Translations under genes and position numbers: made by a program
The notes under the pieces: generated by a model
Seen by the model: the letters and a program-made list of their open reading frames with translations, nothing else
What the model was told of the DNA's origin: nothing
The model's database searches: none
IMG/VR virus record: IMGVR_UViG_3300032316_000223
Coordinates: 1-64,000 of that record
Strand: one strand, 5' to 3'
Source of the DNA: a virus
DNA: 64,000 nucleotides
Part shown: piece after piece, positions 735-4,350 of the stretch
Layout: each line of letters starts with the position of its first letter
How positions within the stretch are numbered: position 1 is the first letter of the stretch

Positions 735-752
735 TTATACTAGAAAGTATAA
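735..752 (-). promoter_or_regulatory. Promoter/operator of the left microgene cassette
   Basis: A perfect inverted repeat TTATACT-agaa-AGTATAA. Its right arm, read on the minus strand, is an extended -10 (TGTTATACT, 746-754) for the genes to the left. The right cassette has the equivalent at 1827-1844. A dyad overlapping the -10 suggests an operator. No good -35 hexamer is seen. Confidence 0.55.
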
Positions 753-807: not shown

Positions 808-871
808 TGTGACTTACATCATGTGGATAACTTACGCTTAAAATTAAATGTGATGTGCGTCATGTGGATAA
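808..871 (-). promoter_or_regulatory. Two composite CRP-like/DnaA-box elements, left copy
   Basis: Two copies of the pattern TGTGA-N6-TCATGTGGATAA start at 808 and 849, exactly 41 bp apart. Each contains a perfect consensus DnaA box on the minus strand (TTATCCACA, at 822-830 and 863-871) joined to a TGTGA half-site in CRP/GlxR-like geometry. The pair lies about 76 bp upstream of the inferred cassette transcription start. The rest of the non-coding stretch 694-935 shows only the promoter dyad and a GCCCCGAGTCA motif (897-907), also present at 1971-1981. Confidence 0.6.
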
Positions 872-1783: not shown

Positions 1784-1826
1784 TTTGACTTCCTTTCTTT
1801 AGGGGGTTTACTTCTTTTTCAACCTT

Positions 1827-1844
1827 CTATACCTAGAAGTATAG
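1827..1844 (-). promoter_or_regulatory. Promoter/operator of the right microgene cassette
   Basis: Inverted repeat CTATAC-N6-GTATAG. The right arm on the minus strand forms an extended -10, TGCTATACT (1838-1846). It aligns with the dyad at 735-752, including the downstream-shared GGGGTCTGACATCTACT block, so the control region is duplicated with the genes. Confidence 0.55.
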
Positions 1845-1899
1845 CAGGGGGGTCTGACATCTACTGACGGGTAATCATACCAAAACGGACATTTTGAAA

Positions 1900-1963
1900 T
1901 GTGATGTAGGTCATGTGGATAACTTACGCTCAATTCTGAATGTGATCTACATCATGTGGATAA
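1900..1963 (-). promoter_or_regulatory. Two composite CRP-like/DnaA-box elements, right copy
   Basis: The pattern TGTGA-N6-TCATGTGGATAA occurs at 1900 and 1941, again exactly 41 bp apart. Perfect minus-strand DnaA boxes (TTATCCACA) lie at 1914-1922 and 1955-1963. In three of the four elements in the window the centre of the spacer is TA, as in the GlxR consensus TGTGANNTANNTCACA. The element pair is about 76 bp from the inferred minus-strand start, as in the left copy. Confidence 0.6.
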
Positions 1964-2005
1964 CTTTTTTGCCCCGAGTCAATGTCCGATTTGCACCATT
2001 TGTCG

Positions 2006-2071
2006 TGTGGCGTATATCACATGCGACACGCCGTGCTAGGACTTGACTTTTGGCAGGGTATGTGATAGGAT
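2006..2071 (+). promoter_or_regulatory. Early promoter P1 with CRP/GlxR-like site
   Basis: TTGACT (2043-2048), a 17-bp spacer and TAGGAT (2066-2071) form a sigma-70-type promoter. Upstream lies TGTGGCGTATATCACA (2006-2021), one mismatch from the CRP/GlxR consensus, centred about 64 bp before the inferred start. Downstream DNA (CTATAACAATTAAATA) is shared with P2. The stretch 1784-2286 otherwise has no gene. Confidence 0.65.
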
Positions 2072-2116
2072 ACTCCTATAACAATTAAATAGCGCTATAG
2101 ATAGTACCCCCTAGAA

Positions 2117-2171
2117 TGTGACCAACACCACACGCTAAGGGCTTGACTTTTAGACAAATGTCTGCTAGTAT
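2117..2171 (+). promoter_or_regulatory. Early promoter P2 with CRP-like site
   Basis: TTGACT (2143-2148), 17 bp, TAGTAT (2166-2171), exactly 100 bp downstream of P1. A weaker palindrome TGTGACCAACACCACA lies at 2117-2132. The sequence after the -10 repeats that of P1. It should drive the 40-aa gene at 2287. Confidence 0.65.
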
Positions 2172-2193
2172 TACTACTATAACAATTAAATAC

Positions 2194-2236
2194 AAATCCT
2201 AGTGAGCCTCCCAATAAGAGCAAATAACCTAGGTCA
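2194..2236 (+). repeat. Leader repeat, copy 1
   Basis: AAATCCTAGTGAGCCTC (2194-2210) and AATAAGAGCAAATAACCTAGG (2213-2233) in the leader before the 40-aa gene recur at 2498-2514 and 2554-2577 before the gene at 2628. CCTAG at one end can pair with CTAGG at the other, so a leader RNA structure is possible. Confidence 0.6.
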
Positions 2237-2286
2237 AGAAAAGCGATAGACACAAGGTCTATCACATTAAAAAAAGGAGTCATCAA

Positions 2287-2409
2287 ATGACAAACCCATT
2301 CTTAGCCCTTATGGACTGGATCAACGAAAACGGAGATCTAGGCGGTCCCTACCCTGCCTTTATTGGCGTAGGCATAGCGTTCGCCCTATGCGTTATCTTT
2401 GGACTGTGA
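2287..2409 (+). CDS. Small membrane protein, 40 aa
   Basis: AAAAAAGGAG lies 7 nt before the ATG. The product begins MTNPFLALMDWINENG, with a Gly/Pro linker and a hydrophobic C-terminal segment (roughly residues 24-40) fitting one transmembrane helix. It lies alone between P1/P2 and P3, and its stop codon overlaps the P3 CRP-like site. Its DNA is visibly richer in G and C than most of the window. It is too short for family assignment. Confidence 0.6.
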   Translation: MTNPFLALMDWINENGDLGGPYPAFIGVGIAFALCVIFGL

Positions 2410-2470
2410 CCTATCTCACACCACGCCTACGGCGTGTCGCCTTGACTTTTCAGGGTATGTGTGATAGTCT
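2405..2470 (+). promoter_or_regulatory. Early promoter P3 with perfect CRP/GlxR consensus
   Basis: TGTGACCTATCTCACA (2405-2420) matches both the CRP consensus TGTGAN6TCACA and the GlxR form with central TA. TTGACT (2442-2447) and TAGTCT (2465-2470) follow with a 17-bp spacer. The site is centred about 64 bp upstream of the inferred start, the same as P1 and in the usual class I activator range. Confidence 0.7.
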
Positions 2471-2497
2471 TACGACATAGAAAATTAAATATAGAAT

Positions 2498-2577
2498 AAA
2501 TCCTAGTGAGCCTCTGAGCCTAGCAAATAACCCCCTAAAGGGTGAGCCTAGCAAATAAGAGCAAATAACCTAGGTCA
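2498..2577 (+). repeat. Leader repeat, copy 2, with internal 16-bp direct repeat
   Basis: It contains the two blocks of copy 1, separated by an insertion with a 16-bp direct repeat TGAGCCTAGCAAATAA at 2515-2530 and 2543-2558, and an inverted CCCCCTAAAGGG between them. Located between P3 and the start codon at 2628, it would form most of the leader RNA. Confidence 0.6.
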
Positions 2578-2627
2578 GCAAAAAGGTTAGCAAATCGCTA
2601 ACTAAACTAAAAGAAAGGTGGTCTCAA

Positions 2628-2855
2628 ATGACTACATTAAATAACTACTATAACGAAATTCGTTCTGATATTGCTAAGGACTTTGGTCTAGAGGCAGGTG
2701 GCTATGCGCCACAACCTAAGATGATACCTATCAGAATTGCTGCTCGCATTAACTATAAGTATCCTCCTACCTATGAGGGTAGAAAAGTTATTCTCAACCC
2801 TATGGCGGTGCGTATTGCTAAGCGATACCTATCACTATCTAAGGTAGGTGAATAA
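2628..2855 (+). CDS. Hypothetical protein, 75 aa
   Basis: A 75-residue basic protein starting MTTLNNYYNEIRSDIAKDFG, with AAAGAAAGGTGG before the ATG. It has an Arg/Lys/Tyr-rich C-terminal half (RIAARINYKYPP, RIAKRYLSLSK) that could contact nucleic acid. It heads an early block driven by P3. The next gene starts directly after its stop. Not recognised. Confidence 0.65.
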   Translation: MTTLNNYYNEIRSDIAKDFGLEAGGYAPQPKMIPIRIAARINYKYPPTYEGRKVILNPMAVRIAKRYLSLSKVGE

Positions 2856-3008
2856 ATGACTATCACCTATACACTTTGGCAGGGTAGCCAATTACTAGCA
2901 GTAAATCAAAAGGCTAACAAGCCAGAAGAAATACTTGCAGTTATTGCAGAACTAAATAAATTAGGTAAGGGTTTCACTTACAACATTAGAGAAGTAGAGG
3001 TTAAATAG
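2856..3008 (+). CDS. Hypothetical protein, 50 aa
   Basis: Starts on the base after the preceding stop, with AAGGTAGG as ribosome binding site. The product begins MTITYTLWQGSQLL and has an alternating beta-then-helix look, ending in FTYNIREVEVK. It is similar in length and layout to the protein at 3160-3333, though identity is weak. Function unknown. Confidence 0.5.
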   Translation: MTITYTLWQGSQLLAVNQKANKPEEILAVIAELNKLGKGFTYNIREVEVK

Positions 3009-3010
3009 TT

Positions 3011-3163
3011 ATGGAGTTCTACATTAACTTAGATTTTATTAGTATCTATGCTGATAGCATAGGACTACAGGTAGAGTTGCCTACATGGCTACTAATTGGC
3101 TCTATTGCATTAGTTTATTCTATTAAACTAATTAGAAACGAAAAGTCAGGGGAATCTAAATGA
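3011..3163 (+). CDS. Small membrane protein, 50 aa
   Basis: A 50-residue protein with a polar N terminus and one hydrophobic segment at about residues 24-40 (LPTWLLIGSIALVYSI), followed by a basic tail (KLIRNEKSGESK). This is the topology of a single-pass inner-membrane peptide. Its TGA overlaps the next ATG (ATGA). Function unknown. Confidence 0.5.
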   Translation: MEFYINLDFISIYADSIGLQVELPTWLLIGSIALVYSIKLIRNEKSGESK

Positions 3164-3333
3164 AGGTAACACTAACAACCATGCAAGGCAACACTCGCAA
3201 CATTAACCTTATGACTAAGCAAGAGGTATTAGATTTTATAGAATTGTTTAAATCTACATTACACAAAAATCAAAGAGTTAAGGTAACTTGTGATCTATTA
3301 AGCATAGATGGTTATCTACAGGGGCAGGCCTAG
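3160..3333 (+). CDS. Hypothetical protein, 57 aa
   Basis: Coupled by ATGA to the membrane peptide upstream. It begins MKVTLTTMQGNTRN and ends with a hydrophilic beta-like segment (VKVTCDLLSIDGY). Last gene of the P3 block, followed immediately by two terminator hairpins. Function unknown. Confidence 0.5.
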   Translation: MKVTLTTMQGNTRNINLMTKQEVLDFIELFKSTLHKNQRVKVTCDLLSIDGYLQGQA

Positions 3334-3334
3334 T

Positions 3335-3371
3335 AGGGGGCAACCCCTCTAGTGTGCTCACTATTTTTTTT
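3335..3371 (+). terminator. Tandem-hairpin terminator of the early block
   Basis: Hairpin 1 is AGGGG-GCAA-CCCCT (3335-3348), with a GNRA-type loop. Hairpin 2 is TAGTG-tgct-CACTA (3350-3363), followed by a run of T (3364-3371). The DNA from here to 3460 is very AT-rich without further signals. Confidence 0.7.
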
Positions 3372-3464
3372 ATTTTTTATTTTTAAAATTACATATCATA
3401 CATCTAAGAAAAATATTCAGATTTTCTCAAAATAAAAATTTTTTCAGATTTTCAGGGGGTAGAG

Positions 3465-3470
3465 TATAAT
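3465..3470 (+). promoter_or_regulatory. -10 element, leaderless type
   Basis: TATAAT ends 6 nt before the ATG at 3477, so transcription should start at or next to the start codon. No Shine-Dalgarno sequence fits between. Confidence 0.55.
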
Positions 3471-3476
3471 AAATAT

Positions 3477-3635
3477 ATGTGCCAACACTCCTATACATAC
3501 ACAGGTCCTGGGCTATGCCGATATTGTGGTTTGGACACACATGATCCTGACTGGAATAAAATAAATAAGGGGTATTCAGAGTATAGAAAAAAAGTTGGAT
3601 TTTTCTTCAATAATAATGTCTGGTGGACAATCTAG
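3477..3635 (+). CDS. Zinc-finger-like small protein, 52 aa
   Basis: Begins MCQHSYTYTGPGLCRYCG. The C-x-x-H and C-x-x-C pairs 10 residues apart form a compact zinc-binding site, followed by an aromatic, basic C-terminal half. There is no ribosome binding site, but a TATAAT lies 6 nt before the ATG, so the mRNA is probably leaderless. Function unknown. Confidence 0.6.
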   Translation: MCQHSYTYTGPGLCRYCGLDTHDPDWNKINKGYSEYRKKVGFFFNNNVWWTI

Positions 3636-3646
3636 CCACAATATGC

Positions 3647-3652
3647 TAGAAT
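3647..3652 (+). promoter_or_regulatory. Extended -10 element, leaderless type
   Basis: TGCTAGAAT ends 6 nt before the ATG at 3659. Confidence 0.5.
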
Positions 3653-3658
3653 ATATAT

Positions 3659-3799
3659 ATGCACTTACTTGGACTAGAAATTCGGAAAGACCGTAGAGAA
3701 AAACAATACTCTATGTTGTCTTGCTATGGTTGTGCTAAAATAATCTGGGTAGCAAAAGAAAACATTAGAGTCAGCAACTACTGTACTTCATGCAAATGA
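3659..3799 (+). CDS. Zinc-ribbon microprotein, 46 aa
   Basis: Basic N terminus (LEIRKDRREKQY) followed by CYGC and, at the extreme C terminus, CTSCK, giving a classic two-knuckle zinc ribbon. It has its own leaderless-type promoter and its TGA overlaps the next ATG. DNA- or polymerase-binding would fit such a fold, but nothing here proves it. Confidence 0.6.
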   Translation: MHLLGLEIRKDRREKQYSMLSCYGCAKIIWVAKENIRVSNYCTSCK

Positions 3800-3861
3800 A
3801 ACAACGAATAATAATCTCTATCATCATAATTGGTTTGGCAGCATTGATATGGCTATCTTAG
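3796..3861 (+). CDS. Single-helix membrane peptide, 21 aa
   Basis: MKQR followed by an Ile/Leu/Ala stretch to the stop: almost nothing but one membrane helix with a basic N-terminal anchor. It is coupled by ATGA to the zinc-ribbon gene and overlaps the following gene in another frame. Such a short frame could arise by chance; the coupling and clean hydrophobic design are the support. Confidence 0.35.
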   Translation: MKQRIIISIIIIGLAALIWLS

Positions 3862-4001
3862 ACAACCTTGAGGCCTCTATGGCAGATGACGACGGTATGC
3901 CAAGTAAAACAGTTAACGATATAATTAAAGAAATAATTGAAGATCCAGAGCACTATAAACTTATGGAACGATTAAAATATATGGAGGATCATGGAATCTG
4001 A
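3849..4001 (+). CDS. Acidic hypothetical protein, 50 aa
   Basis: A very acidic 50-residue helical protein (MAILDNLEASMADDDG, then KEIIEDPEHYKLMERL). It overlaps both neighbours out of frame. Acidic, helical phage microproteins often act as DNA mimics or protein inhibitors; here that is only an inference. Confidence 0.5.
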   Translation: MAILDNLEASMADDDGMPSKTVNDIIKEIIEDPEHYKLMERLKYMEDHGI

Positions 4002-4149
4002 ATCATTGGATAAACATACTGCAAAAGGTTTGAACATAGTAAACGAAACAAGTAAATCAACAAAGTGTTGTGACACATGTGCATGTGGTAATTCTGAAGA
4101 AGAAAAGTTTAATAAATTAATGGAGACTCAGTCTTCTTTTGAAGAGTAA
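3991..4149 (+). CDS. Cys-cluster small protein, 52 aa
   Basis: Contains CCDTCAC around residues 26-32 between polar, Ser/Glu-rich flanks. It starts inside the end of the previous gene (AUG in GGAGGATCATGG, so GGAGG gives the ribosome binding site). It ends directly against the convergent gene at 4150. Metal binding is likely; function unknown. Confidence 0.5.
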   Translation: MESESLDKHTAKGLNIVNETSKSTKCCDTCACGNSEEEKFNKLMETQSSFEE

Positions 4150-4350
4150 TTACCACTTACCTAGAGGACACTTGGCTCTTTCTAAAACAACTTTCATTTT
4201 CATAAAACATCCACACTTGCTGCATCTTTGCATTCTTTGTTGGAACTCAGGGCATGTATAACAAACACCCAATCTCTCTTTAGCCACCTGTCTTGAAACT
4301 TTTGGAGAAGATCTGTCTAGCATATTCCAAGGTTTAACATCGTCACTCAT
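4150..4350 (-). CDS. Small zinc-finger protein (CxxC ... CxxC ... CPLGKW)
   Basis: 66 residues. After a polar N terminus come CYTCPEF, CSKCGCFMKMK and the terminal CPLGKW. I recognise this pattern from small conserved proteins in many tailed phages, where the cysteines are expected to bind zinc; their role is not known. AAAGGAAA in the end of the upstream gene provides the ribosome binding site. Last gene of the three-gene minus-strand island. Confidence 0.75.
   Translation of the reverse strand: MSDDVKPWNMLDRSSPKVSRQVAKERLGVCYTCPEFQQRMQRCSKCGCFMKMKVVLERAKCPLGKW

Follow-up and report, generated by a model that had tools for sequence, protein, structure and literature searches.

Three rightward promoters with CRP-like palindromes

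The locus studied here raises the question of whether a class of phage promoters is activated by a host regulator of the CRP/GlxR type. We refer to the whole stretch of DNA that was analysed as the window; it comprises bases 1-64000 of a 66,486-bp IMG/VR virus record whose GC content is 36%. Its products include a portal, a head maturation protease, a large terminase subunit, a DnaE-like DNA polymerase, a DnaB-like helicase, a primase, a UvsX-like recombinase and a ribonucleotide reductase (RNR), and small ORFs fill its first 4 kb. The features discussed below are located in Table 1.

The original prediction proposed that three promoters in this region each have a CRP-like 16-mer upstream. We recovered all three promoters and their 16-mers, and the spacing of P1 and P2 is exactly 100 bp, as had been claimed. 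The third 16-mer, TGTGACCTATCTCACA, is indeed a perfect consensus, with 0 mismatches to TGTGAN6TCACA. The promoter cores are of the sigma-70/sigma-A type, following the pattern TTGACT-17-TAnnnT with TGn, and P3 is not among the promoters listed by a generic promoter scan of the window. We measured offsets from the start of the CRP-like site to the start of the -10 hexamer, and calculated site centres by setting the start of this hexamer at -12. With this convention, the sites of P1 and P3 are centred at about -64.5, in agreement with the distance of about 64 bp upstream of the inferred start that had been predicted.

Table 1. Location of promoters, putative regulatory elements, leader RNAs and ORFs in the window
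Feature	Position	Strand	Remarks
-10 box of second leftward promoter	746..751	-	TATACT, TGT before the box
Second composite pair	808..871	-	CRP-like 808-823, 849-864; DnaA-box-like 822-830, 863-871
-10 box of leftward promoter	1838..1843	-	TATACT, TGC before the box; TGTCAG type
Two composite elements, TTATCCACATGAN6TCACA	1900..1963	-	72 and 113 bp before leftward -10; CRP-like 16-mers 1900-1915, 1941-1956; DnaA-box-like 1914-1922, 1955-1963
CRP/GlxR-like palindrome of P1, TGTGGCGTATATCACA	2006..2021	+	1 mismatch to TGTGAN6TCACA; 60 bp before -10; centre ~-64.5
CGACACGCC element of P1	2024..2032	+	GACAC 41 bp before -10; possible WhiA site; fixed position in relatives
Promoter P1	2043..2071	+	TTGACT-17-TAGGAT with TGn
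CRP/GlxR-like palindrome of P2, TGTGACCAACACCACA	2117..2132	+	1 mismatch; 49 bp before -10; centre ~-53.5
Promoter P2	2143..2171	+	TTGACT-17-TAGTAT with TGn
Leader hairpin of P1/P2 transcripts	2198..2233	+	one UGAGC/CAAAUAAC internal loop; by eye
40-aa ORF	2287..2409	+	hydrophobic stretch; first ORF after P1/P2
CRP/GlxR palindrome of P3, TGTGACCTATCTCACA	2405..2420	+	perfect, 0 mismatches; 60 bp before -10; centre ~-64.5
GGCGTGTCG element of P3	2431..2439	+	reverse complement of CGACACGCC; GTGTC 31 bp before -10
Promoter P3	2442..2470	+	TTGACT-17-TAGTCT with TGn
P3 leader RNA, nested hairpin	2502..2574	+	three UGAGC/CAAAUAA internal loops; by eye
75-aa ORF after P3	2628..2855	+	44 relatives in IMG/VR

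The original prediction also regarded these promoters as a distinct class because promoters elsewhere in the window lack -35 boxes. Judged by eye, this seems correct: in front of many later genes there are TGnTATAAT-like boxes for which no -35 element is evident, and the proposed distinction therefore holds. Boxes of this kind occur at 3460-3480, at 3640-3662 and, from 5580 onwards, at the beginning of many genes. Some are located only 6-8 bp upstream of the start codon, which hints that the transcripts are leaderless. A separate observation concerns the 40-aa ORF, whose TGA stop codon sits within the first half-site (TGTGA, 2405-2409) of the P3 palindrome.

CRP-like 16-mers with at most two mismatches show no enrichment over the whole length of the window (26 found, 41 expected). 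Those with at most one mismatch number 4 in 64 kb, where about 2.2 are expected, and three of these four lie close together, in front of promoters and inside a span of 415 bp. The window alone makes a moderate case that the sites exceed chance; the case from relatives is very strong.

Conservation and helical phasing in related loci

For the comparison of the 16-mers in relatives, we assembled loci from 44 IMG/VR relatives of the 75-aa protein and 80 more loci via the RNR gene. The relatives were thus chosen solely by a neighbouring protein or the RNR gene, and not by CRP sites. In these loci and the window, we identified promoters using only the core sequence (TTGACTTTT-14-TAnnnT), removed near-duplicates and searched for palindromes from 40 to 124 bp before the -10 box. 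Each of the 36 resulting non-redundant promoters has a CRP-like palindrome at a phased offset (10 perfect, 25 with one mismatch and 1 with two). A palindrome with at most one mismatch is present at 35 of the 36, compared with 2.3% of random positions.

The positions of these sites are highly restricted. Although 85 positions were allowed, the best site is found only at offsets of 49, 50, 60, 61, 70 or 80 bp, corresponding to centres at about -53.5, -64.5, -74.5 and -84.5 in this clan, i.e., steps of roughly one helical turn. For offsets of 49, 60, 70 and 80 to have arisen, the spacing must have changed by about this amount more than once. The periodicity is approximately 10-10.5 bp, with a Rayleigh p of about 1e-12 to 1e-13 in loci that were not selected on CRP, a value that is inflated by shared ancestry. 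Under looser promoter definitions there were 33 and 53 matches, whereas permuted palindromes of the same composition gave means of 0.3-0.6 (range 0-3).

Further searches gave the same picture. Among the matches listed by an IMG/VR scan in which the spacing was left free, the same peaks appear, at 26, 36/37 and 46-48 bp from the start of the site to the start of the -35 box; these listed matches include contigs of 42-62% GC, several of them with WhiB. Of 31 records tested, 22 contain the full pattern and none contains its reversed control, and 20 virus records contain 85 perfect palindromes as opposed to 1 match for the reversed pattern. Most perfect palindromes cluster within about 10 kb, among the records listed. 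In a scan based on the leader RNA only (see below), 24 TTGA-type promoters lie upstream, and 22 of them have a CRP-like site with at most two mismatches, in all cases at an offset of 60, 69-71 or 81. Phased CRP sites also accompany a second promoter type, TGTCAG-n-TGnTAnnnT.

If the sites represented chance matches combined with shared ancestry, it would be unsurprising that matches with up to two mismatches are no commoner in the window than expected. However, we regard this explanation as practically negligible, as it is contradicted by conservation at 36 of 36 promoters, by near-zero counts for permuted and reversed controls, and by the helical phasing. Chance as the source of the sites was rejected on these permuted and reversed controls.

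Alignment of the sites yields the consensus TGTGATGTAAATCACA, which has a central TA, as in CRP/GlxR sites. In this alignment, whose sites were pre-selected at two mismatches or fewer, the signal is strong at the central TA and in the promoter-proximal half TCACA, and less strict in the distal half.

The phages and their likely host

The closest cultured relatives of the phage are Streptomyces phages of the Stanwilliamsviridae, whose proteins share 55% (DNA polymerase) and 46% (portal) amino acid identity with it. A nucleotide similarity search with positions 1800-4200 of the window found no match in cultured phages, and the 75-aa protein was likewise not found in them. We also searched genome contigs with the RNR gene in order to find a host, but the single match, at 32% identity, is irrelevant. 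A WhiB gene is present in 22 of 29 relatives; none was found in the 66-kb record of the window, which may be a fragment. WhiB and the closest cultured phages indicate that members of the clan are probably actinophages with an actinobacterial host, and these two observations together with base composition suggest that the host is a low-GC actinobacterium. The label "freshwater" that we apply is provisional, and comes from a comparison with published low-GC actinobacterial phages (PMC10202952). The CRP-promoter pattern is missing from the cultured relatives BillNye and Yaboi, and is therefore not a general trait of the wider group.

Identity and action of the regulator

The promoters combine a palindromic TGTGA-N6-TCACA, a helix-phased centre upstream of the -35 box and a sigma-70/sigma-A-type core, the features by which class I promoters are recognized. 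It is important to consider that the position of a site is by itself no proof of activation, and that the P2 centre at about -53.5 is non-classical for E. coli class I. Three observations point to a regulator supplied by the host: the sites are conserved, they are helically phased, and no CRP-like protein was detected in the phages. We consider it probable, from these sequence patterns, that a CRP/GlxR-type regulator of the host activates sigma-A-type promoters of these actinophages from class-I-like positions.

In this model, host RNA polymerase containing a sigma-A-type factor would transcribe from the phage promoters. A host CRP/GlxR dimer bound to the palindrome would contact the C-terminal domain of the polymerase alpha subunit, and would thereby raise initiation soon after the DNA enters the cell. 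A second factor, discussed below, might assist, and the same regulator would work on two leftward promoters via composite sites.

An alternative is that the phage itself encodes a repressor or activator of CRP-like specificity, for which the palindromes serve as operators. Many copies are clustered in one region of the phage genomes, as is seen with repressor operators, and several ORFs are without known function. Nonetheless, we think this quite unlikely. The consensus is that of CRP/GlxR, the sites lie upstream of the -35 box with helical phasing and not over the core, and the arrangement is common to phages of other base composition. Moreover, the cNMP-binding domain PF00027 was found in 0 of 29 records, many of which may be incomplete, and the Crp helix-turn-helix PF00325 was not found in the window record. 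A search of 30 records for class III adenylate cyclase was also negative.

Host CRP might instead bind and repress, or might bend the DNA as an architectural element. Repression has a precedent in phage T1, in which the pir, dam and recE promoters are repressed by host cAMP-CRP (PMC6737242). This is improbable here, since none of the 36 promoters has its best site over the -35 box, the -10 box or the start (within the range of 40-124 bp before -10), and a spacing that varies upstream of the core in increments of about 10 bp is easier to reconcile with RNA polymerase contact.

A possibility that we take more seriously, without expecting it to be correct, is that the activator is another member of the host's CRP/FNR superfamily or a cAMP-independent CRP, in which case carbon state would not be reported. 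Several actinobacterial members of this family may share TGTGA-type half-sites, and our data do not separate them; it is the match to the full CRP/GlxR consensus that favours the main CRP orthologue. The cAMP dependence of actinobacterial CRP homologues also differs from that of E. coli CRP, and neither the proposed sensitivity of infection to host carbon state nor the direction of such an effect can therefore be assumed. The part of the original interpretation that stands is that a distinct class of promoters has CRP/GlxR-type sites where an activator would bind; a link between promoter strength and host carbon state is only a possibility.

Additional elements at rightward and leftward promoters

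Between the CRP site and the core, a second element occupies a fixed place. In a TTGACTTTT set, all 48 occurrences of CGACACGCC start 19 bp before the -35 box, and 31 of 35 occurrences of its reverse complement start 11 bp before it. In some promoters of this set, the element is replaced by TGTCCG repeats at 15 and 24 bp before the -35 box. Expressed relative to the -10 box, the positions are -41 for GACAC and -31 or -33 for GTGTC, with counts far in excess of the 0.1-0.2 occurrences expected per position. In Streptomyces, GACAC is the site of WhiA, in both orientations, and WhiA acts together with WhiB (PMC3781837, PMC6282962). Judging by this resemblance, the fixed GACAC/GTGTC elements may be WhiA sites, and the factor assisting at these or at the TGTCCG elements could be host WhiA with a WhiB-like partner. 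A search for the WhiA helix-turn-helix in these phages found none. We also noted an exact 20-bp match between CACATGCGACACGCCGTGTT of the GACAC element and positions 1201-1220 of Bifidobacterium phage PMBT6, between divergent genes and beside an XRE-type regulator; with E = 0.6, the match may be due to chance.

Two leftward promoters, both of the TGTCAG-n-TGnTAnnnT type, each have two composite elements at 72 and 113 bp. Their four CRP-like sites (at 808, 849, 1900 and 1941) are half-degenerate and had been overlooked in the original prediction. The TTATCCACA part of the composite element matches the sequence of a DnaA box. Composite elements are paired at a distance of 41-42 bp, and the fetched loci contain 44 of them; TTATCCACA is frequent outside composites too, with 126 occurrences in 1.68 Mb, 25 of which are in composites. 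The leftward promoter region is itself duplicated in the window, as two 138-bp copies (736-873 and 1828-1965) that are 80% identical and 1092 bp apart.

A modular leader RNA downstream of the promoters

Many related loci share a leader RNA, a hairpin in which the same internal loop, RUGAGC/CAAAUAAR, occurs one to three times. We selected 31 sequences by the loop strings and by equal lengths of the Y arms, with no requirement for pairing. These fold into three helices, between which the same 6/8 internal loop, RUGAGC/CAAAUAAR, occurs twice. Without any filtering of the 31, pairing is found at 133 of 134 positions in the middle helix and at 109 of 124 over the first four positions of the outer helix. 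We then left out 8 sequences by hand; in the resulting alignment of 23, 93.8% of cells pair, versus 26-44% when the strands are slid by 1-3 columns, a percentage that is somewhat flattered because of the removal by hand. The same alignment has 66 double-sided changes and a covariation of 0.484, versus 0.146 when shuffled. When unconstrained, RNAalifold predicts a partly different fold; we tested the structure named here by counting pairs and by comparison with the slid controls.

A structural search yielded 137 matches, compared with 0-2 for permuted motifs, and an independent scan on the RNA strings alone found 39 further non-redundant elements. Among the 39, the middle helix is paired at 155 of 156 positions, with CTAG-type arms that are largely fixed by the search pattern; of 156 positions each, 142 are paired in the terminal stem and 136 in the outer helix. 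Rfam gave no match in the window, and near the leader RNA there was one sub-threshold match below the gathering score, attributable to chance. Our guess is that the RNA functions in antitermination, mRNA stability or protein binding.

In 9 of the 39 leaders, and in further leaders of the 31-sequence set, the terminal stem is itself a CRP palindrome. A broader and more doubtful reading is that the early region is run by an integrated system of host CRP/GlxR at helix-phased class I positions, a second factor at a fixed position beside the -35 box (host WhiA with a WhiB-like partner) and the modular leader RNA, in which the palindrome of the next promoter's DNA can double as the terminal stem of the RNA. 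We advance it tentatively. If it is true, infection would be gated by metabolic and cell-division regulators of the host.

Relation to known systems and implications

The arrangement resembles E. coli lac-type class I promoters and the GlxR promoter of Corynebacterium ldhA, which also have TGTGA-N6-TCACA upstream of a sigma-70-type core, and sites whose spacing changes in increments of about one helical turn; GlxR recognizes this sequence and activates ldhA (PMC7999487). In comparison with E. coli class I, the phage centres are about 3 bp further upstream than the optimum, if the -10 box starts at -12. The phage promoters also differ in their extra fixed GACAC/TGTCCG elements. Streptomyces WhiA/WhiB promoters likewise have GACAC upstream in either orientation, and WhiB is often encoded by the phages themselves here; however, the five-base motif sits within the longer CGACACGCC in our promoters, and its assignment to WhiA is hypothetical.

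The use of host nutrient regulators by phages is already known (PMC3037559, PMC6737242). For cyanophages, NtcA, a nutrient regulator of the host that belongs to the CRP/FNR superfamily, has been proposed to drive phage genes, with 1-16 predicted sites per genome (PMC3037559). The regulator, motif and hosts are different in that case, whereas here each sampled promoter of one class has a phased site. In contrast to phage T1, where CRP represses, the geometry in these unrelated actinobacterial phages suggests activation. The uncultured clan, with 36% GC, has the CRP-promoter pattern that BillNye and Yaboi of the Stanwilliamsviridae lack. The present case differs in that nearly all promoters of one class use the site, and also in its helical phasing, its composite architecture and the group of phages concerned. 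In the open-access literature, we came across no description of actinophage promoters driven by CRP.

The phased CRP site, the TTGACTTTT or TGTCAG core and the leader RNA together provide a signature for finding such phages and their early regions, and the natural spacing variants bear on how actinobacterial CRP contacts RNA polymerase. Freshwater actinobacteria rank among the most abundant bacteria in lakes. If our explanation is true, their phages would begin infection by reading the global metabolic regulator of the host, which would give a concrete, testable tie between host physiology and phage activity.
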